From assembly GCF_024734075.1 (NCBI RefSeq), contig NZ_CP102850.1:3472001-3536000 (forward strand): 64,000 bases of DNA, read 5' to 3'. Position numbers and translations under genes: made by a program. The notes beneath the pieces are model-generated. The model was not told the origin of the DNA. It ran no database searches and worked only from the letters and a program-made list of their open reading frames with translations. This DNA comes from Gordonia mangrovi (lineage in GTDB: Bacteria > Actinomycetota > Actinomycetes > Mycobacteriales > Mycobacteriaceae). The number at the start of each line of letters is the position of its first letter. Position 1 is the stretch's first letter. Positions 50,753 through 59,692 of the stretch are shown one piece after another.

Positions 50753-50898
50753 GAATGATGGCGCATCGGGTCGTCCCCGGCGGCGGTGATCTGTGCTCCG
50801 CGCTGCCGAGGCGGGAGATGCGCCCCACAATTGAATCCAGGTGCGATCTGGCTGTGAGTGCTTGAACCGGACGATCCGCGCGGCGTAGCGTGGTCCGC

Positions 50899-50925
50899 AC
50901 GCCTACTACTTTTCGTAGTAGGCGT
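50899..50925. promoter_or_regulatory. Perfect palindrome in the cyd promoter
   Basis: ACGCCTACTAC, five loop bases (TTTTC), then GTAGTAGGCGT: eleven-base arms with no mismatch. It lies 78 bases upstream of the cydA ATG in the 250-base pabC/cydA gap. The TACTAC/GTAGTA half-sites recall BlaI/CopY-type operators, but a Rex-like or other redox regulator is also possible. It could instead be a hairpin in the pabC 3' end. Confidence 0.7.
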
Positions 50926-51003
50926 GGTTCGGTGGTCAGGAGTTCGCACAGCCGGACCGGCCCGTGCATCGCAGCCCGATGCACCGACTCTGATAGAGGC
51001 GAC

Positions 51004-52560
51004 ATGGACGCTCTTGATGTCTCCCGTTGGCAATTCGGGATCACCACCGTCTATCACTTCATTCTCGTCCCACTGACCATCGGTCTGGCGCCGATGATCG
51101 CGGTGATGCAGACGGTGTGGCACGTGACCGGCAATGAACAGTGGCTGCGCGCCACCAAGTTCTTCGGCAAGCTGTTCCTGATCAACTTCGCCCTCGGCGT
51201 CGCCACCGGCATCGTGCAGGAGTTCCAGTTCGGCATGAACTGGAGCGAGTACAGCCGGTTCGTCGCCGACGTCTTCGGTGCCCCGCTGGCGTTCGAGGGT
51301 CTGGTCGCGTTCTTCCTGGAATCCACCTTCATCGGGTTGTGGATCTTCGGGTGGGGCCGACTGCCGCGCCGGGTACATCTGGCCTGTATCTGGTTGGCCG
51401 CGATCGGGGTCAACGCGTCGGCGTACTTCATCATCGCCGCCAACTCCTGGATGCAGCACCCGGTCGGTGTCGCCTGGGACGACTCCCGGGACCGGCCGGC
51501 GATGAACGATTTCTGGGCGGTGCTGACCAACAACACCACCCTGGCGGCCTTCCCGCACGTGATCGCCGGCGCGTTCCTCACCGCGGGAACCTTTGTGGCC
51601 GCGATCGGCTGCTGGTGGATGGCGCGGAACATGTGGCGCGCGAAGAAACTCCGTGCAGCCATCGAGACCGGCGACACCTCGGACATGCCGGAGACCACCT
51701 CGCCGAGCCAGATCGACGCCACCCCGGACGATCTCGAACACGACGCCCACCGCCTCTGGCGACCGGTGACGAGGTTCGCGCTGTGGGTCGTGATGGTGTC
51801 CGGCGTCGCGCTGTTCATCACCGGTGACATCCAGGCCGAGATCATGTTCAAGCAGCAGCCGATGAAGATGGCCTCGGCCGAATCGCTGTGTGAGACCGAG
51901 ACCGGCGCGCCGTTCTCCGTGCTCGCCATCGGCCGGCAGAACAACTGCGACAACATCACCCAGGTCATCGAGATCCCGAACATGCTGTCGTTCCTGGCCA
52001 ACCGTGACTTCAACAGCACCGTGCAGGGTGTGAACGAGTTGCAGGCGCAATACCAGGAGCAATTCGGCATGCCGGGGCAGAACTTCGCGCCGAACCTGTT
52101 CGTCACCTACTGGGGCTTCCGCGCCATGATCACCTGGGCGCTCGGCTCGGCGCTGCTCGCGTTCGGCGCGCTGTGGCTCACCCGCAAGAAGCGGGTCGTG
52201 GAGTCCCGCAGATTCGGCTTGTTCGCGCTGTGGATGATCCCCACCCCGTTCCTGGCCAACGCCTCCGGGTGGATCTTCACCGAGATGGGACGTCAACCCT
52301 GGGTGGTGGTGCCGAACTGGGAAGACGACCTCGACCCGCTGCGGATACACATGCTGGTACAAGACGGGGTGTCCAACCACGTCGCGGCGACGGTGTGGGT
52401 CACGCTGATCGGCTTCACCCTGATCTACGGAGCGCTCGGGGTGGTCTGGTTCATGCTGCAACGCCGCTACATCATCGAGGGACCGGCCACCTACGATGCG
52501 GTGCCGCCCGACGAACCGTCAAACTCCGATGAGCCCAAACAACTCTCGTTCGCGTACTGA
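51004..52560 (+). CDS. cydA: Cytochrome bd ubiquinol/menaquinol oxidase subunit I
   Basis: Membrane heme oxidase subunit of 518 residues; oxidises quinol and reduces oxygen at high affinity. The axial histidine H18 lies in TTVYHFILVPLTIG and the second near residue 184 in FPHVIAGAFLTAG. GRQPWVV near 437 is the conserved quinol-side motif. NWSEYSRFVADVFGAPLAFE and MQHPVGVAW are family stretches. The span count is about nine. The Q-loop region (residues 245-370) is moderately long. AGAGG precedes the ATG. cydB, cydD and cydC follow in order. Confidence 0.96.
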   Translation: MDALDVSRWQFGITTVYHFILVPLTIGLAPMIAVMQTVWHVTGNEQWLRATKFFGKLFLINFALGVATGIVQEFQFGMNWSEYSRFVADVFGAPLAFEGLVAFFLESTFIGLWIFGWGRLPRRVHLACIWLAAIGVNASAYFIIAANSWMQHPVGVAWDDSRDRPAMNDFWAVLTNNTTLAAFPHVIAGAFLTAGTFVAAIGCWWMARNMWRAKKLRAAIETGDTSDMPETTSPSQIDATPDDLEHDAHRLWRPVTRFALWVVMVSGVALFITGDIQAEIMFKQQPMKMASAESLCETETGAPFSVLAIGRQNNCDNITQVIEIPNMLSFLANRDFNSTVQGVNELQAQYQEQFGMPGQNFAPNLFVTYWGFRAMITWALGSALLAFGALWLTRKKRVVESRRFGLFALWMIPTPFLANASGWIFTEMGRQPWVVVPNWEDDLDPLRIHMLVQDGVSNHVAATVWVTLIGFTLIYGALGVVWFMLQRRYIIEGPATYDAVPPDEPSNSDEPKQLSFAY

Positions 52561-52571
52561 GGAGATCGACG

Positions 52572-53654
52572 ATGGGTCTGCCCGAATTCTGGTTCCTGAT
52601 CATCGCGTTCCTGTTCGTCGGCTACTTCGTCCTGGAGGGCTTCGACTTCGGTGTCGGCATGCTCATGCCGTTCCTCGGCCGCAGCCACACCGGCGGTGAC
52701 GAATCGGTGGCACCGGGCGAGGAGATCGCCGATCCCGACGCCCGGCGACGGACCATCCTGAACACCATCGGGCCGGTCTGGGACGGCAACGAGGTCTGGG
52801 TGATCACCGCCGGCGCGGCGTTGTTCGCGGCGTTCGGTGGGTGGTACGCGACCATGTTCAGCGCCTTCTATCTCCCACTGTTCCTGATCCTGATCGGATT
52901 GATCACCCGGGTCTGCGCCATCGAATGGCGCGGCAAGATCGATGACCCGAAGTGGCGCAGGGCCGCGGATATCGGTATCGGTCTGGGCTCGTGGATCCCG
53001 GCGATCCTCTGGGGTGTCGCGTTCGCGAACGTGGTCCGCGGCATCCCCATCGACGCCGACCATCAGTACACCGCGGGCTTCTTCAACCTGCTCAATCCGT
53101 ACGCCCTGCTCGGCGGGCTCACCACGCTGCTGGCGTTCCTGACCCACGGTGCGGTCTTCCTCGCCCTCAAGACCTCCGGCGTGCTCAAGCAGGACGCGAT
53201 GACCTACGCTGCGCGGCTGGCGATTCCGACGCTCGTGGTGGCCGCGGTGTTCCTGCTGTGGACGCAGTTCGCCTACGGCAACGGGTGGACCTGGATTCCG
53301 GTGCTGATCGCGGCGGTCGCCGCCGTGGTGATGGTCGGCGCCACCCAGATACGCCGCGAGGGCATCGCGTTCGCCGCGACCTTCGTCGCGATCGGCGGCA
53401 CCGTGGCGACCCTGTTCGCCGTGCTCTACCCGAATGTGCTGCCGTCGAGCACGAGTGAGGCCTACAACCTCACCATCGACAACACCTCGTCGAGCAACTA
53501 CACGCTGACCATCATGACGTGGGCCGCCGTGCTGATCACCCCTGTCGTCATGGGCTATCAGGCGTGGACCTACTGGGTCTTCCGCAAGCGCCTGTCCGTC
53601 GAGCAGATCCCGGCCAGCACCGGACTGTCGTCGCTGCGCGCACGCTCGTGGTGA
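52572..53654 (+). CDS. cydB: Cytochrome bd oxidase subunit II
   Basis: Membrane partner of CydA, 360 residues, about eight or nine spans. Marks are FVLEGFDFGVGMLMPFLGR near residue 20-38, LNTIGPVWDGNEVWVITAGAALFAAF near 60-85 and AFYLPLFLILIGLITRVCAIEWRG near 98. It lies 11 bases after cydA with GAGGAG upstream. Its stop overlaps the cydD GTG by four bases. Confidence 0.95.
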   Translation: MGLPEFWFLIIAFLFVGYFVLEGFDFGVGMLMPFLGRSHTGGDESVAPGEEIADPDARRRTILNTIGPVWDGNEVWVITAGAALFAAFGGWYATMFSAFYLPLFLILIGLITRVCAIEWRGKIDDPKWRRAADIGIGLGSWIPAILWGVAFANVVRGIPIDADHQYTAGFFNLLNPYALLGGLTTLLAFLTHGAVFLALKTSGVLKQDAMTYAARLAIPTLVVAAVFLLWTQFAYGNGWTWIPVLIAAVAAVVMVGATQIRREGIAFAATFVAIGGTVATLFAVLYPNVLPSSTSEAYNLTIDNTSSSNYTLTIMTWAAVLITPVVMGYQAWTYWVFRKRLSVEQIPASTGLSSLRARSW

Positions 53655-55402
53655 CCGGACGCATCCGCACCTCGACCGAGACCGTTCCCGCCACGCCGGA
53701 CTCCGGTTCGCCGGAGCCCGGGACGGCCACCGCACGCCGTTCCGGGCCCATCGATCCGCGACTGCTCAGGCACTCCACGATCGCGCGCGGCTATGTCGTC
53801 GCCACCGCGATGTTCTCCTTCGCCGGCGTCGCGATGACCATCGTCACCGCGGCCATGGCCGCCTCCATCGTGTCCGAACTCATCGTCGACCCGAGTCGAC
53901 GGTCGCTGGGCGCGCAGCAACTGCATCTGTGGGTGCTGGCCGGGGCGCTGCTCACCCGCGGACTGCTGACCTACCTGCACGACCGCTACGCCCACCGTGC
54001 ATCGGCACGGGTGATCGCCCAGTTGCGCGGCCGCGCACTCCAGGTGCTGACGGACCCGGCGCAGACCTCCGTACGCGCGTTGGTGGCACGACGCGAACAT
54101 GCGGCGACGGTGGTGCTGCGCGGACTCGATGCGCTGGGCCCTTACCTGTCCGGGTATCTGCCTGCCCTGATCGTGACGATGACCGTCACGCCGACGGTCG
54201 TGGTCGTCGTCGGGCTCACCGACTGGCCGTCGGCGCTGGTCATCCTCATCACCCTGCCGCTGATCCCGCTGTTCATGGTCCTCATCGGTCTGATGACCCG
54301 GGAACGGACCGACCGCAAACTCGCGGCGACGAGCCGGCTGGCCGCTCAGCTGCTCGACCTGATCGCCGGGCTGCCGACGCTGCGTGCGCTCAACCGTTTT
54401 CGCGGTCCCGCAGCGCGGGTCGCCGACCTGGGGCGGGCCCATCGACGCAGCACGATGTCGGCGTTGCGGGTGGCGTTCCTGTCCGGCGCGGTCCTGGAAC
54501 TGCTCGCCACATTGTGTGTGGCGGTGGTCGCCGTCGGCATCGGTCTGCGGTTGGTGCACGGTGACATGAGTCTGTATGCCGGTGTGCTGGCGCTCATCCT
54601 GGCCCCCGAGGCGTATCACCCGCTGCGGCAGGTGGGCGCACAGTTCCACAACTCCGCCGACGGTGTCGCCGCGGCGGGCGAGGTCATCGACCTGATCGAG
54701 TCGGAGCCCGACGACGCGGTGATCGCGCCGGGCCGCCGCAGCTGCTCGGTGGCCGGGCAACCGGTCCGGCTCCTCGACGTCGGCGTGCACGGCCGGGACG
54801 GCTGGGCGCCCGAACACCTCGATGCGGTGTTCGAGCCGGGCCGGCTCACGGTGGTGACCGGTGCGAACGGGTCCGGGAAGTCGACGGCCCTGCTGGCGGT
54901 GATGGGCCTCGTGGCGCCCGACGCCGGTTCGGTGCTCATCGGGTCCATCCCGGTCGCCGAACTCGAGCCCGGTGCGCTGCACGAGCAGATCGCCTGGCTC
55001 CCGCAACAGCCCGTGCTGGTGCCCGGCACGGTCGATGAGAACCTCGCGCTGTTCGGTCCGCTCGACCCGGCGGCGCTGCAGCGCGCCGCGGCCGCCACCG
55101 GATTCGACACGGTGATCGCGGCGCTGCGCGATGGTGACCACACGCCGATCGGCGCGGACGGTACCGGGTTGTCGGCCGGGCAGCGTCAGCGTCTCGCACT
55201 CACCCGAACCCTCGCCTCCCCGGCACCGCTGCTGTTGCTCGACGAACCGACCGCCCACCTCGACGACGAATCGGTGCGTGCCGTGCTCGAGGTCCTGTCG
55301 GCCCGGGCCGCCGCCGGCGACACCGTGGTGGTGGTGGCCCATCAGCCGGCGGCACGGGCGTTCGCCGATCAGATCGTCGTCGTCGGTGGGGGGAGCACAT
55401 GA
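53651..55402 (+). CDS. cydD: Heterodimeric ABC transporter subunit for cytochrome bd assembly
   Basis: ABC exporter half of 583 residues. The N-terminal membrane domain (about six spans, residues about 45-330) contains GYVVATAMFSFAGVAMTIV. The nucleotide domain has Walker A VVTGANGSGKST near 405-416, signature LSAGQRQRLALTRTL near 503, and Walker B LLLLDEPTAHLD. CydDC exports reduced thiols such as cysteine or glutathione and is needed to assemble cytochrome bd. In this mycothiol organism the exported thiol is unknown. The GTG overlaps the cydB stop (GTGA). Confidence 0.94.
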   Translation: MTGRIRTSTETVPATPDSGSPEPGTATARRSGPIDPRLLRHSTIARGYVVATAMFSFAGVAMTIVTAAMAASIVSELIVDPSRRSLGAQQLHLWVLAGALLTRGLLTYLHDRYAHRASARVIAQLRGRALQVLTDPAQTSVRALVARREHAATVVLRGLDALGPYLSGYLPALIVTMTVTPTVVVVVGLTDWPSALVILITLPLIPLFMVLIGLMTRERTDRKLAATSRLAAQLLDLIAGLPTLRALNRFRGPAARVADLGRAHRRSTMSALRVAFLSGAVLELLATLCVAVVAVGIGLRLVHGDMSLYAGVLALILAPEAYHPLRQVGAQFHNSADGVAAAGEVIDLIESEPDDAVIAPGRRSCSVAGQPVRLLDVGVHGRDGWAPEHLDAVFEPGRLTVVTGANGSGKSTALLAVMGLVAPDAGSVLIGSIPVAELEPGALHEQIAWLPQQPVLVPGTVDENLALFGPLDPAALQRAAAATGFDTVIAALRDGDHTPIGADGTGLSAGQRQRLALTRTLASPAPLLLLDEPTAHLDDESVRAVLEVLSARAAAGDTVVVVAHQPAARAFADQIVVVGGGST

Positions 55403-57177
55403 CCATGCGTACTGATGCGGCTCCCGCGGCGGCCGACCAGGAGATGATGGAGGCCCCGCTGCGCCGGGCGTTCGCCTTCCTGGGGTTGCGCGGCCGCCCG
55501 CTGGTGAAGTCGATCCTCCTCGGGGTCGGCGGCGCGTTGTCCGCGCTCGGACTCGCCGCGCTGTCGGCCTGGCTGATCACCCGTGCCTGGCAGATGCCGC
55601 CGGTGCTCTACCTGTCGGTCGCGATCACCGCGGTGCGTGCGCTCGGCATCTCGCGCGGGGTGTTCCGCTACCTCGAGCGCCTGGCCACCCATGACCTGGC
55701 CCTCGGCGCGATGGCCACCGCACGTGAACGTGTGTATCGGACGCTGGCAGCCGGCTCGCCCGCCTACTCGGTGAGCCTGCGGCGCGCGGAGTTGCTGGGG
55801 CGTACCGGCGACGACATCGACGAGATCGGCAACGCCCTGATCCGCGGCGTCATCCCGATCGCGGTCGGCGCGGTGACCAGCGTGGCGGCCGTCGTCATCA
55901 TGGCGCTGGTCTCGTGGTGGGCCGCAGCGGTGCTCGCGGTGGCACTGATCGTGAGCGGTCTCCTCGCGCCGGCGATGGCAGCGCGCGGATCGGCCCGGAC
56001 CATCGCCGACTCCGCGGCCGCCAACGACCGCGCCGCGGACGCCGCGGTCACCGCGCTCTGGCACGCGCCGGAGCTGACCGTGGCCCGTCGTCGTGGCGCG
56101 GTACTGGACATCGCTCGGCGCAGTGAGGCCGAGGCACTGGCCGCGACCGACCGCGGTCTGCGCTATGAGGCCGCCGCGAGCGCCGCCACGCCGCTGTCGC
56201 TGGGTGCCTCACTCGTCGCGGCCTGCCTGATCGGCGTGCACCTCGCGTCGCAGGTCCCCGGTTCGTTGGCGGACGTGGCGTCGGGGGAGGGGCTCACCCC
56301 GATGATCCTGGGAGTGCTGATCCTGCTGCCGTTGTCGGCGTTCGAGTCGACGGGGCCGCTCACCGAGGCGGGTATCCAGCTCGAACGCAGCCGCCAGAGC
56401 GCGCGGCGGGTGATGTCGCTGGTGGATCGTGCCGGGGTGGACGTCGCCGACGGGGACGCCGACCCCGACGCCACCGACCGGACCATCTACGACGGCCCGG
56501 TCACCATTCAGATGGCGGGCCTGCGCTGGGGGTGGCCCGCCGGACCGCCGTTGGGCCCGGCCGGCGGGCTGGATCTGCGTCTGTCACCAGGAGACCGATG
56601 GGTCATCGTGGGGCCGAGCGGCGCGGGCAAGACCACCCTCGGTCTGACCCTCACCGGACTGTTGGCGCCACGCGTGGGCCACGTCGACATCCGCGACCAG
56701 AATGGCGACGCGGTGGACGTCCGCTCGTCGACCTGCTATTTCGCCGAAGAAGGCCACCTGTTCTCCACCACTCTCCGGGAGAATCTGCTGGTGGCCCGTG
56801 GCGACGCGACCGACGAGGAACTCGTCGCGGCGCTCGGGGCCGTCGGTCTGCGCTCCTGGTTGGACGGCCTCGCCGACGGACTCGACACCGACCTCGTCGG
56901 CGGTGCGGCGGCCGTCAGCGGCGGTCAGCGTCGCCGGCTGTTGCTCGCGCGCGCCGTGCTGCATCCGGCACCGGTGGTGGTGCTCGACGAGCCGACCGAG
57001 CACCTCGACGCCGACGACTCGGCGGCGATGTTGCAGCGGATACTCGGGCGGTCCGGCGACTTGTTCGATTCTCGTCGGATCGTCGTGGTGATCACGCATC
57101 ATCCTGCAGTGCAACAGATTTCGACAGGCAATCCGCGATGCGCCGTGTTCGGGATGGTGCCGCCGCAGGCGGGCTGA
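55399..57177 (+). CDS. cydC: Heterodimeric ABC transporter subunit for cytochrome bd assembly
   Basis: ABC half of 592 residues that pairs with CydD. The membrane domain occupies residues about 35-320 (GGALSALGLAALSAWLITRA, WAAAVLAVALIVSGLL). Walker A VGPSGAGKTT near 405-414, signature VSGGQRRRLLLARAVL near 507 and Walker B VVVLDEPTEHLD follow. ATGA overlap joins it to cydD. CydC is the last gene; the operon is cydABDC, the standard actinobacterial layout. The C-terminus continues 50 residues beyond the final helix (THHPAVQQISTGN). Confidence 0.94.
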   Translation: MTMRTDAAPAAADQEMMEAPLRRAFAFLGLRGRPLVKSILLGVGGALSALGLAALSAWLITRAWQMPPVLYLSVAITAVRALGISRGVFRYLERLATHDLALGAMATARERVYRTLAAGSPAYSVSLRRAELLGRTGDDIDEIGNALIRGVIPIAVGAVTSVAAVVIMALVSWWAAAVLAVALIVSGLLAPAMAARGSARTIADSAAANDRAADAAVTALWHAPELTVARRRGAVLDIARRSEAEALAATDRGLRYEAAASAATPLSLGASLVAACLIGVHLASQVPGSLADVASGEGLTPMILGVLILLPLSAFESTGPLTEAGIQLERSRQSARRVMSLVDRAGVDVADGDADPDATDRTIYDGPVTIQMAGLRWGWPAGPPLGPAGGLDLRLSPGDRWVIVGPSGAGKTTLGLTLTGLLAPRVGHVDIRDQNGDAVDVRSSTCYFAEEGHLFSTTLRENLLVARGDATDEELVAALGAVGLRSWLDGLADGLDTDLVGGAAAVSGGQRRRLLLARAVLHPAPVVVLDEPTEHLDADDSAAMLQRILGRSGDLFDSRRIVVVITHHPAVQQISTGNPRCAVFGMVPPQAG

Positions 57178-57245
57178 AAACTGGTTGCCGCCCGCGTGCG
57201 CCGAGCGTATCTTCATCGGTACACGAGGAAGGAGGTGGTTCGAAG

Positions 57246-57284
57246 TTGTATGACTGTTGGACACGTGAGGTGACCATCCGCTAG
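57246..57284 (+). CDS. Candidate 12-residue micropeptide with strong ribosome site
   Basis: A TTG start at 57246 is preceded by AAGGAGGTGG at 57229-57238. It would encode MYDCWTREVTIR followed by a stop at 57282-57284. An alternative ATG at 57250 gives only seven residues (MTVGHVR). The site is very strong for so short a frame and lies 52 bases after cydC, which suggests a leader or regulatory peptide. I recall a similar phrase in other actinomycetes but cannot name it. Confidence 0.4.
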   Translation: MYDCWTREVTIR

Positions 57285-57384
57285 CGCGGACCGAGGTATT
57301 CACCTCCGCGGAGTGCGCGGCGGATCGCCCACGGCGAACCGTGACGCCGCACCGGTCCGCGCCGGCGAATCCCAGGTGGTCACC

Positions 57385-57447
57385 CGGCCCCCGTACCCCG
57401 ATCCTTGTCCGATCGGCCAGGCCCGCTCGCGGGCGGTACGGGGGCCG
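57385..57447. ncRNA. Candidate structured RNA, three-way junction
   Basis: CGGCCCCCGTACC (57385-57397) pairs perfectly with GGTACGGGGGCCG (57435-57447), thirteen base pairs. Inside are CCGATC/GATCGG (57398-57403 with 57411-57416, seven-base loop) and GCCCGC/GCGGGC (57421-57426 with 57429-57434). Stem two begins right after the outer 5' arm and stem three ends right before its 3' arm, leaving only CCAG between them. The DNA is a near-perfect three-stem junction; strand and transcription are unknown. Confidence 0.45.
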
Positions 57448-57524
57448 TCTGCGTCCGCGGGAGGGGCGGGACCCCACCCCGCGGGATGTAACGCAGATCA
57501 CCGCGGGCCCGATGCGTAATTCAC

Positions 57525-57536
57525 GTAGTCGACTAC
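57525..57536. promoter_or_regulatory. Perfect palindrome upstream of the 57666 gene
   Basis: GTAGTCGACTAC is a perfect 12-base palindrome 129 bases before the ATG at 57666. It may be an operator for that gene. It shares only a short GTAGT/ACTAC resemblance with the cyd palindrome. Confidence 0.4.
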
Positions 57537-57665
57537 TCGTGTTTGCGACCTGATCGTGACGTGAACTGGTCACAGGCGTCGATCAGAACCGATCAGACCG
57601 ACCCATCCAGACCGGGCCGGGGCGCGAACCACAGATGAACGACATACTCGCCAAGGGAGACCGCC

Positions 57666-59006
57666 ATGACCACGACGCACGCACACGTGGTGTCCGTCCT
57701 GGACGAACCGGCCGCGCAAGGTCCGCGCGCGTCGATCGCTCACGAGCTCGACGGGCACATCGACGAGCACGTCCGAGCGCGGTTTCTCACGCCCGACGAC
57801 GCGGACTGGACCAATGACGGCGCCGCGAACTGGCTACCCGGCCACGTCTCCGGGCTGACCTACTCCCACGCGCCCGGCGGCGACCATCTGGTGCTGCACA
57901 ACCGTGGTGTGTCCGACCTGGGAGTGCTGTCGGTCCCGGAGCGGCCCGGCATCTCCGACAATGTCTTCACCCACCTGCCCGCCGGCTGCTCGGTAGATGT
58001 GCCGGCGGCCGACTCCCATGTGCTGCAGACGGCCCGGATCGATGGTCGACCGGTGCTCGTCGGCCAGATCCTCGAAGGCCGTGACGCGCACACCGGCGAA
58101 CCGCAGATGCTGCTCGACGGCCCGAACCCCGGCGAGGTGGACTGGGACCAGCGCGATCCCGACGCCAGGTTCTGGCGTCCCGGCGACGTCGATTTCGGGG
58201 TGCCGGCCTCGCCGTCGTTCGTCTTTCTCGACCCATTGGAGCACGGCGTTCATCACACCCGCATCGATTCCGAGGTGACTATCCACAACCGCTCCGACGG
58301 ACCCGTCGCGGTACTGACCGTCGGCGCTGAGGGCCCGCTCGACCTCGTGGTCGCCGAGTCGGGGGAATCGGTTCCGGTGCCGCCCGGGGACCAGGTCTGC
58401 TACGTGCAGGCGCCCAGAATCGACGGGAGCCCGACGATCCTGGGGGTAATGTGGTTCGCCGGCGGCCAGTTGATGCCCAGCTCGCTGCCCATCCCGGACC
58501 GTCGCGACCATCTCGACCGCCACTACCTGACACCGTGGAGTGCCGACTGGGACTGCGGGTACCCGCAACAGAACCACCTCGACGCCGAGGCCGACGGGGT
58601 GACCTACCAATACCGTGCGGGCGCCGAGACGCTGACCATCCGCAACACCGGCGAGGAGTCGATCGCGGTGATCTACAACCTCGGTTCCGACCGGGCGGTG
58701 GCCGAGATCGCGCCCCGCGGCAAGCGGACCTTCCCGGTTCGGTCGGACGCCGACACCGGCCAGGTCTTCTCGGTCGTGGGCGTGCGGCGAGGCGGGACGC
58801 CCGGACGTGCGGCGAGTGTGGACTCAGCCGGCGGGTTGGTGCCGGGTACCTCCGGACGGCCCGGCACCCCCACCAACTACGGTTCGGTGGTGGTCATGCT
58901 CGGAACCGTGGTCTACAGCGCCATCCCGAAGAAGAACCTCTATCTTGCCTGGTCAGACCGTCCCTGGTCAGGTCGTCGCCGTCGGCATCGTCGGTCGCAC
59001 CGCTGA
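57666..59006 (+). CDS. Unassigned protein with three repeated beta-rich units
   Basis: Protein of 446 residues that I do not recognise; no signal peptide or membrane span. Internal repetition is visible: LVLHNR at 75-80, VTIHNRS at 204-210 and LTIRNTG at 323-329, each followed about 45 residues later by RIDGRPVLVG (124-133), RIDGSPTILG (251-260) and the degenerate GQVFSVVGVR (365-374). LTPDDADW (41-48) is echoed by LTPWSADW (288-295). The C-terminus ends in a basic tail, RRRRHRRSHR. GGGAGACC precedes the ATG. It stands between cydC and the nitrobindin-like gene, where mycobacteria, as I recall, have no gene. Confidence 0.75.
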   Translation: MTTTHAHVVSVLDEPAAQGPRASIAHELDGHIDEHVRARFLTPDDADWTNDGAANWLPGHVSGLTYSHAPGGDHLVLHNRGVSDLGVLSVPERPGISDNVFTHLPAGCSVDVPAADSHVLQTARIDGRPVLVGQILEGRDAHTGEPQMLLDGPNPGEVDWDQRDPDARFWRPGDVDFGVPASPSFVFLDPLEHGVHHTRIDSEVTIHNRSDGPVAVLTVGAEGPLDLVVAESGESVPVPPGDQVCYVQAPRIDGSPTILGVMWFAGGQLMPSSLPIPDRRDHLDRHYLTPWSADWDCGYPQQNHLDAEADGVTYQYRAGAETLTIRNTGEESIAVIYNLGSDRAVAEIAPRGKRTFPVRSDADTGQVFSVVGVRRGGTPGRAASVDSAGGLVPGTSGRPGTPTNYGSVVVMLGTVVYSAIPKKNLYLAWSDRPWSGRRRRHRRSHR

Positions 59007-59026: not shown

Positions 59027-59692
59027 TCAGCCGGCGACGCGGCGCAGCTTGGCTGACAGCCGCGGGATGAGGTCGCCGTCGGTGTCCACCCGTTCCTCGA
59101 CGTAGGCCAGGTCGCCGTCCTCGACGAGACCATACAGGCGCTTGGCCCCGCCGGTGCGGCGTCCGGAGTCGGCCTTGATCACCACGTCGGTGGCCAGTTC
59201 CCACGACGTCTGGGTGAGCGGCGCCCCGTAGAAGAGTTCGATCGAGCCCTCGGCATGGGCGAGGAGCAGTTCGATGGTGTCGTCGTCGCCGATCCGCCAG
59301 TAGCCCGTCTCGCGCAGATCGGGCCGGACGAAGTGGGCGTCCTCGTCGATGACCCAGGATCGTGCCTGCCAGTTGAGGAAGTTCTGCCCGTCGTGGCTCA
59401 CCACGATCTGTTGCGCGAAGTGGTAGTCCTCGCCGGTCTCGGGATCGTTCGCCTCACCCTCGCCCTGCCAGATCCCGACGAGCGGCAGGAGAGCGAGCAG
59501 ACCGGAATGCAGGTCCGCGCCATGGCGCAGGTTGGCGGTGTCGTGTGCGAGCGGGATGTCGCCCCACTCGGGGAGGTTGCGTTCGGCGGTCTCCTGCGCA
59601 CGCTCGGCTGCCTGATTGATGGCCTCGTCGCCGGACCGGCGTCCCACCGGGCCGGCGTGGCGCTCGGAGCCGTCCGCGCCTGCGGAGCTCAC
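59027..59692 (-). CDS. Nitrobindin/FABP-like family protein (Rv0813c-like)
   Basis: Ten-stranded beta-barrel protein of 221 residues, THAP4/nitrobindin family. The barrel begins with [13 protein letters not shown] near residue 72, the family's G-x-W-x-G-x-G motif, followed by [19 protein letters not shown]. The last strand reads [12 protein letters not shown], where heme-binding nitrobindins have a His (HLSARL) as proximal ligand; here it is Arg, so heme binding is doubtful. N-terminal about 50 residues are charged and probably flexible. The GTG start overlaps the stop of a 32-residue micropeptide gene. Confidence 0.82.

Follow-up and report, generated by a model that had tools for sequence, protein, structure and literature searches.

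Ms_IGR-5, a stand-alone RNA whose fold may be opened by translation of its own 12-codon frame

The RNA family Ms_IGR-5 is already known and is filed in Rfam merely as an sRNA. Comparison of its copies supports the view that bases of a 12-codon frame within the RNA can pair with the RNA's own 3' domain, and our favoured reading, held with moderate confidence, is that of a stand-alone RNA whose fold opens when its own frame is translated, a switch worked by the ribosome. The copy analysed here lies in a window of 64,000 nucleotides of Gordonia mangrovi, to which all positions refer; all features of the RNA are on the plus strand.

The single Rfam match found by cmscan in this window was RF02471 (Ms_IGR-5) at 57221-57453 (+), with 104.2 bits against a gathering cut-off of 45 and an E value of 2.2e-22; the ends given are those of the model match, which spans the full model length (1-184). 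The 3' stem of the family is complete in the window and covaries in relatives, so that both score and structure place the locus in the family. The folding energy of the RNA (z = -4.2) was equalled by none of 200 shuffles, and a scan of the window for tRNA and tmRNA found none. The genome of G. mangrovi harbours one copy of Ms_IGR-5, a family reportedly described from M. smegmatis.

The RNA ends in a terminator-like three-way junction (57385-57447). For this region the initial annotation had drawn a 13-bp outer stem enclosing two further stems that abut it, with only CCAG between them, and exactly this arrangement is present: the strands CGGCCCCCGTACC (57385-57397) and GGTACGGGGGCCG (57435-57447) pair at 13 of 13 positions, and hairpin 1 (57398-57416; 6 bp, loop CTTGTCC, with the loop GUCC at 57407-57410) is joined by the CCAG spacer (57417-57420) to hairpin 2 (57421-57434; 5 bp). 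The annotation had taken the region for a structured RNA and named homologues in Mycobacteriales with compensatory changes as the check. Such homologues exist, the micro-frame is kept in them, matches occur in 172 of 200 sampled genomes of the order (E 0.001; 165 over the cut-off), and 12 of the 13 outer-stem pairs change on both sides. In the 89 copies used for this covariation, taken from 118 parsed 3' domains (36 further loci were unparsable or ran off the contig end), 178 cells showed both-side changes compared to 53.9 in shuffles, and 94.8% of the cells were paired compared to 80.2%. Hairpin 1 keeps its loop GUCC among relatives while its arms vary, and hairpin 2 is variable and missing from some relatives. 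Of the features of an intrinsic terminator the GC-rich stem is present; the window then reads TCTGCGTCC, which contains no U-tract, while a U-tract follows the stem in most Zixibacteria copies read. A GC hairpin at 57455-57484 lies outside the Rfam match, 3' of it. On the 5' side the domain is preceded by a variable linker (57285-57360), which forms a long hairpin in the minimum-energy fold of this copy, and by a conserved element GCCGGCGAATCCCAGG (57361-57376) with similar letters in relatives.

The 12-codon frame described earlier, starting at TTG behind AAGGAGG (57229-57235), proved exact: MYDCWTREVTIR is encoded at 57246-57284, with the start TTG at 57246-57248 and the stop TAG at 57282-57284. 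Comparison supports that it is kept as a frame. The stop is in place in 312 of 315 distinct copies (TAG 249, TGA 39, TAA 24), a set that contains one chance match (L325), and 300 of these 312 have a canonical start (TTG 145, ATG 103, GTG 52). The other 12 starts were, by eye, CTG in five, ATC in four, ATT in two and not clear in one; the 12 loci with a non-canonical start (e.g. L018, L053, L151) carry a very strong Shine-Dalgarno sequence alongside. As out-of-frame controls, the two other frames gave an open stretch that begins with a start codon in 0 and 24 of the 312. Frame lengths were 12 codons in 276 copies, 13 in 15, 14 in seven and 11 in two. The subset found by the Rfam model behaved in the same way, with a stop in 201 of 203 and a canonical start in 189 of 201. 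Apart from L325 in the frame set, the chance matches L259, L313, L321 and L325 were removed before counting. An SD-like GAGGUG (57267-57272) within the frame is invariant in 315 of 315 copies, third codon positions included, whereas codon 6 has a variable third base. In 312 of 315 aligned copies this GAGGUG stands 9 bases 5' of the stop. The residues E8-V9 were present in 300 of 300 frames read, with variation at codons 2-7 and 10-12, and per-codon residue counts of the frame copies revealed no repeated codons for one amino acid.

Codons 8-11 supply the 5' strand of a helix, P2, in which GGUGACCA (57269-57276), overlapping the SD-like GAGGUG, pairs 8/8 with UGGUCACC (57377-57384). Among relatives the commonest form of the 3' strand is CAGUCACC, and the commonest pair is GGUGGCUG with CAGUCACC. 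All eight pairs are formed in 230 of 278 copies; both-side changes occur at three of the eight positions, and some 13% of copies are unpaired at position 5. P2 is also part of the minimum-energy fold computed for the window sequence alone. In 33 copies from deep-branching lineages, Zixibacteria and the MAG RBG_13_61_14, own pairing reached 17.9 compared to 16.6 for swapped and 16.0 for shuffled strands, a modest gap; by eye, the best P2 site resembles the element before the terminator in 12 of 13 Zixibacteria/RBG copies.

A second contact is made by GGAY in codons 5-6 (GGAC at 57259-57262 in the window), which by covariation may pair either with the RUCC loop of hairpin 1, forming a pseudoknot, or with an RUCC at the SD end. 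For the loop, GGAC was combined with GTCC in 149 copies and with ATCC in none, and GGAT with ATCC in 94 and, as a wobble pair, with GTCC in 18; outside this table were 14 copies classed as other, two with GGGC and ATCC, and one with GAAC and GTTCC. The loop rule was blind to the ORF and called GTCC where both motifs were present, as in one copy (L084); an alternative parse of the loop, which sometimes picked hairpin 2, gave 150, 4, 85 and 21 in the same order. The corresponding numbers for the SD end were 156 GGAC with GUCC, six GGAC with AUCC, 35 GGAU with GUCC and 83 GGAU with AUCC, and both tables ignore kinship, which inflates the counts. The pattern that had picked 111 of the 314 copies demanded GGA-not-C together with an exact SD and so raised the share of GGAU by construction; information therefore comes only from comparing loops among copies of the same ORF type. 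With the shift from GGAC to GGAU codon 6 encodes T, M or I, and the loop shifts along with it. In one genus (g97) six GGAC copies all have GTCC and five GGAT copies have ATCC in four cases and GTCC in one; the co-change also holds in Nocardia camponoti, and L133 has GGAAC in the frame and GUUCC in the loop. Among the matches listed in a scan for GGA-not-C, GGAU was common in Streptomyces, Kitasatospora and Nocardioides, with loops mostly AUCC, and the change from GGAC to GGAU was seen at least in the Streptomycetaceae, the Nocardioidaceae and one Nocardia. In the window copy folded for minimum energy, the partner of GGAC is the SD end and not the loop; the pseudoknot lies outside what that fold scored.

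Other GUCC sites were considered as partners of GGAC and rejected, as no co-change was seen: in 118 GGAU copies the frame end has GTCC in three and ATCC in none, and the 3' tail has GTCC in 38 and ATCC in one. The 40 bases 3' of the stop contain ATCC in 30 of 118 GGAU copies compared to 20 of 181 GGAC copies, so the loop is not the sole place that shifts.

These pairings bear on the question of whether the product of the frame matters, in which case the RNA would be a compact mRNA equipped with a terminator and a strong ribosome-binding site. Frame, start and stop are conserved, and the invariant GAG-GUG, giving E-V in every frame read, would also fit a peptide function. However, residues at codons 2-7 and 10-12 vary, and the fixation of the third bases of GAG GUG in all 315 copies looks like a constraint on the RNA. 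Moreover, the changes at codon 6 and codons 10-11 go together with matching changes in the 3' domain, and because amino-acid changes are thus linked to pairing, a micropeptide gene appears weakened and, in our view, improbable.

The frame is preceded by an extended Shine-Dalgarno sequence, AGGAAGGAGGTGGTTC (57226-57241), all 16 bases of which can pair with the 16S 3' tail GGAUCACCUCCUUUCU (13 Watson-Crick and three G-U pairs); this 16S 3' end was read in the G. mangrovi genome itself. With G-U allowed, 247 of 314 copies match the tail at 16 of 16 positions and the other 67 at 15 of 16; among the Rfam-found copies the numbers are 187 and 16. In 100 loci of ∼1 Mb (1.99 Mb on both strands), each fetched for its Ms_IGR-5, all 95 full 16-base matches were Ms_IGR-5. 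A 12-base SD pattern occurred at five places in the own genome, namely the three 16S genes, Ms_IGR-5 and one elsewhere; a backward control was found at five places too, and a match of 12 bases is therefore not rare in itself.

Such a match might by itself bind and hold the 30S subunit, the RNA then being a ribosome decoy with incidental translation of the frame. The near-complete pairing in 314 of 314 copies, the lack of any other full match in the ∼1 Mb and the weak starts (TTG in 145 of 300) would agree with a decoy, but a stop kept in frame and lengths that differ by whole codons suggest that complete reading is under selection, and we regard a pure decoy as quite improbable.

Ms_IGR-5 looks like its own transcription unit, as judged by its own promoter box and its varied neighbours. 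A putative promoter is indicated by the -10-like box TATCTT at 57208-57213; in relatives TAnnnT stands 20-23 bases 5' of AGGAGG in 302 of 314 distinct copies. Neighbouring genes were crudely predicted and clustered around 157 parsed entries, which include duplicates (the window and L001, which are the same place, and at least eight pairs such as L093/L138). In the window the RNA is followed on its own strand by a gene (57666-59006) that encodes a 446-residue frame for which no Pfam match was found and that starts about 210 bases after the RNA; no entry other than the window and L001 has a member of its cluster. In the 116 entries in which the RNA end and a neighbour were readable, the nearest downstream gene was convergent in 70, where gaps start at 0 bases. 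The other 46 had it on the same strand, and these genes fell into many clusters, the largest with five members. Thus relatives share no same-strand downstream gene.

A gene for a THAP4-like heme-binding protein follows at 59027-59692 on the strand opposite to the RNA. It is found near the RNA in 44 entries, other lineages included, and is the nearest gene in 20; in the 15 closest cases it ends 10-85 bases past the RNA. In several loci DUF1416 and rhodanese genes come after it. Upstream, the window carries cydA, cydB and two ABC transporter genes (cydD and cydC by position) at 50890-57177, ending 30 bases before the promoter box. Between 57520 and 57540 the perfect palindrome GTAGTCGACTAC separates the RNA from 57666 and is perhaps an operator of that gene.

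With the conserved frame and the promoter box, Ms_IGR-5 has, as far as its sequence tells, one part of what is expected of a dual-function sRNA, namely a conserved frame in a stand-alone transcription unit. An ordinary trans-acting sRNA with the frame as a passenger or second function would likewise fit the Rfam label, the promoter box and the varied neighbours, but the SD and the frame are the most strongly conserved parts, which makes it a very doubtful explanation. The initial annotation had suggested a regulatory RNA or a leader for 57666; the structured RNA with a real micro-frame stands, whereas the leader role does not agree with gene order. Although 57666 is next on the same strand here and 46 of 116 entries have a same-strand neighbour, a cis-acting leader or attenuator is extremely unlikely and largely refuted, since 57666 lies beside the RNA nowhere else, most downstream genes are convergent and the same-strand genes are varied.

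Beyond the order, matches were obtained in 131 of 197 genomes of the class and in 31 of 149 genomes of the phylum (15 of them above the cut-off). Almost every genome that matches does so once, and two do so twice. From the 28 genomes of the order that showed no match, 12, two of them of the same genus, were re-searched with looser filters; nine of them then matched weakly, always below the cut-off. A single same-genus copy was found (L022), and it stops at the contig edge. A pattern of SD plus core was present in 13 of 132 Zixibacteria genomes, and the backward control in none. A copy is also carried by one of three genomes of the phylum of the MAG RBG_13_61_14. The stop is in place in all 13 Zixibacteria copies and in the MAG copy, and by eye the Zixibacteria start is TTG or ATG in 12 of 13 (not in L351). 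Also by eye, the Zixibacteria copies share the element AAUCCC-AC(A/G)G and have a hairpin followed by a U-rich tail, except for L347, where these are masked; GGAC is mostly missing from the copies read, which finish in a plain U-tract terminator. When 12 of these loci were given to the Rfam model (11 Zixibacteria and the MAG, leaving out L347 and L356), 11 were matched and six exceeded the cut-off, the best with 63.1 bits. In L348-L350 a local GAGGU/ACCUC hairpin at the stop, seen by eye, possibly hides the second SD-like site.

Viral contigs yielded 68 pattern matches, none with the stop in place. Matches also occurred in three of 64 Latescibacterota genomes and three of 196 genomes of an archaeal phylum; of these seven matches five have no stop, and the near-identical L428 and L429 from Latescibacterota, which have TGA at the stop position but no AAGGAGG, were taken as chance. 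The backward control matched several Latescibacterota genomes too.

We propose that Ms_IGR-5 is a stand-alone gene for an RNA of ∼230 bases that has a promoter box of its own and ends in a terminator-like three-way junction. The RNA would capture the 30S subunit by pairing up to 16 bases with the 16S tail. The GGAY bases could have two partners: pairing to the SD end would shut the ribosome site, and pairing to the loop in the 3' domain would keep it accessible. P2 would cover most of the second SD-like site, GAGGUG, and a ribosome reading the short frame would have to open P2 and the GGAY contact, so that reading may pull apart both pseudoknot and helix. The GAGGUG ahead of the stop could in addition hold the terminating ribosome. 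Translation would thereby expose or hide the 3' domain, including the strand GUCACC with its likeness to a part of the 16S tail; the peptide would be a by-product, and the output would be directed at ribosomes, at other RNAs or at Ms_IGR-5 itself rather than at a gene in cis. While the contacts in this scheme rest on covariation, we infer the change driven by translation, the held ribosome and the effect on the 3' domain. A more far-reaching version is unlikely, if still worth considering: Ms_IGR-5 might be an ancient stand-alone ribosome sensor common to Actinobacteria and Zixibacteria, which would capture 30S subunits by the complete mature 16S 3' end, have its weak start read only by competent subunits, refold after 12 codons and report the state of translation in trans, with a peptide that has no function.

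The consensus structure of RF02471 contains neither the pseudoknot between ORF and loop nor the pairing of codons 8-11 to CAGUCACC, and the entry is labelled actinobacterial, while Zixibacteria copies score up to 63 bits. Leader-peptide attenuators of the trp or whiB7 type have a short frame overlapping alternative pairings near a terminator-like stem. Ms_IGR-5 is alike in this arrangement but has no shared downstream gene and no apparent repeated codon. SgrS/SgrT and RNAIII are stand-alone dual-function RNAs with a conserved frame; in Ms_IGR-5, by comparison, the frame has 12 codons and the peptide changes with RNA pairing. tmRNA and 6S RNA are conserved stand-alone RNAs that act on core machinery; the Rfam scan matches neither of them, and the contact of Ms_IGR-5 would be the 16S tail.

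If reading of the 12-codon frame governs the fold, Ms_IGR-5 would be an RNA gated by translation that has no gene in cis, and its best-conserved contact would be the 16S tail. This would account for the drift of the peptide sequence while the frame stays, and would offer a direct test of how bacteria that carry Ms_IGR-5 sense or hold ribosomes.
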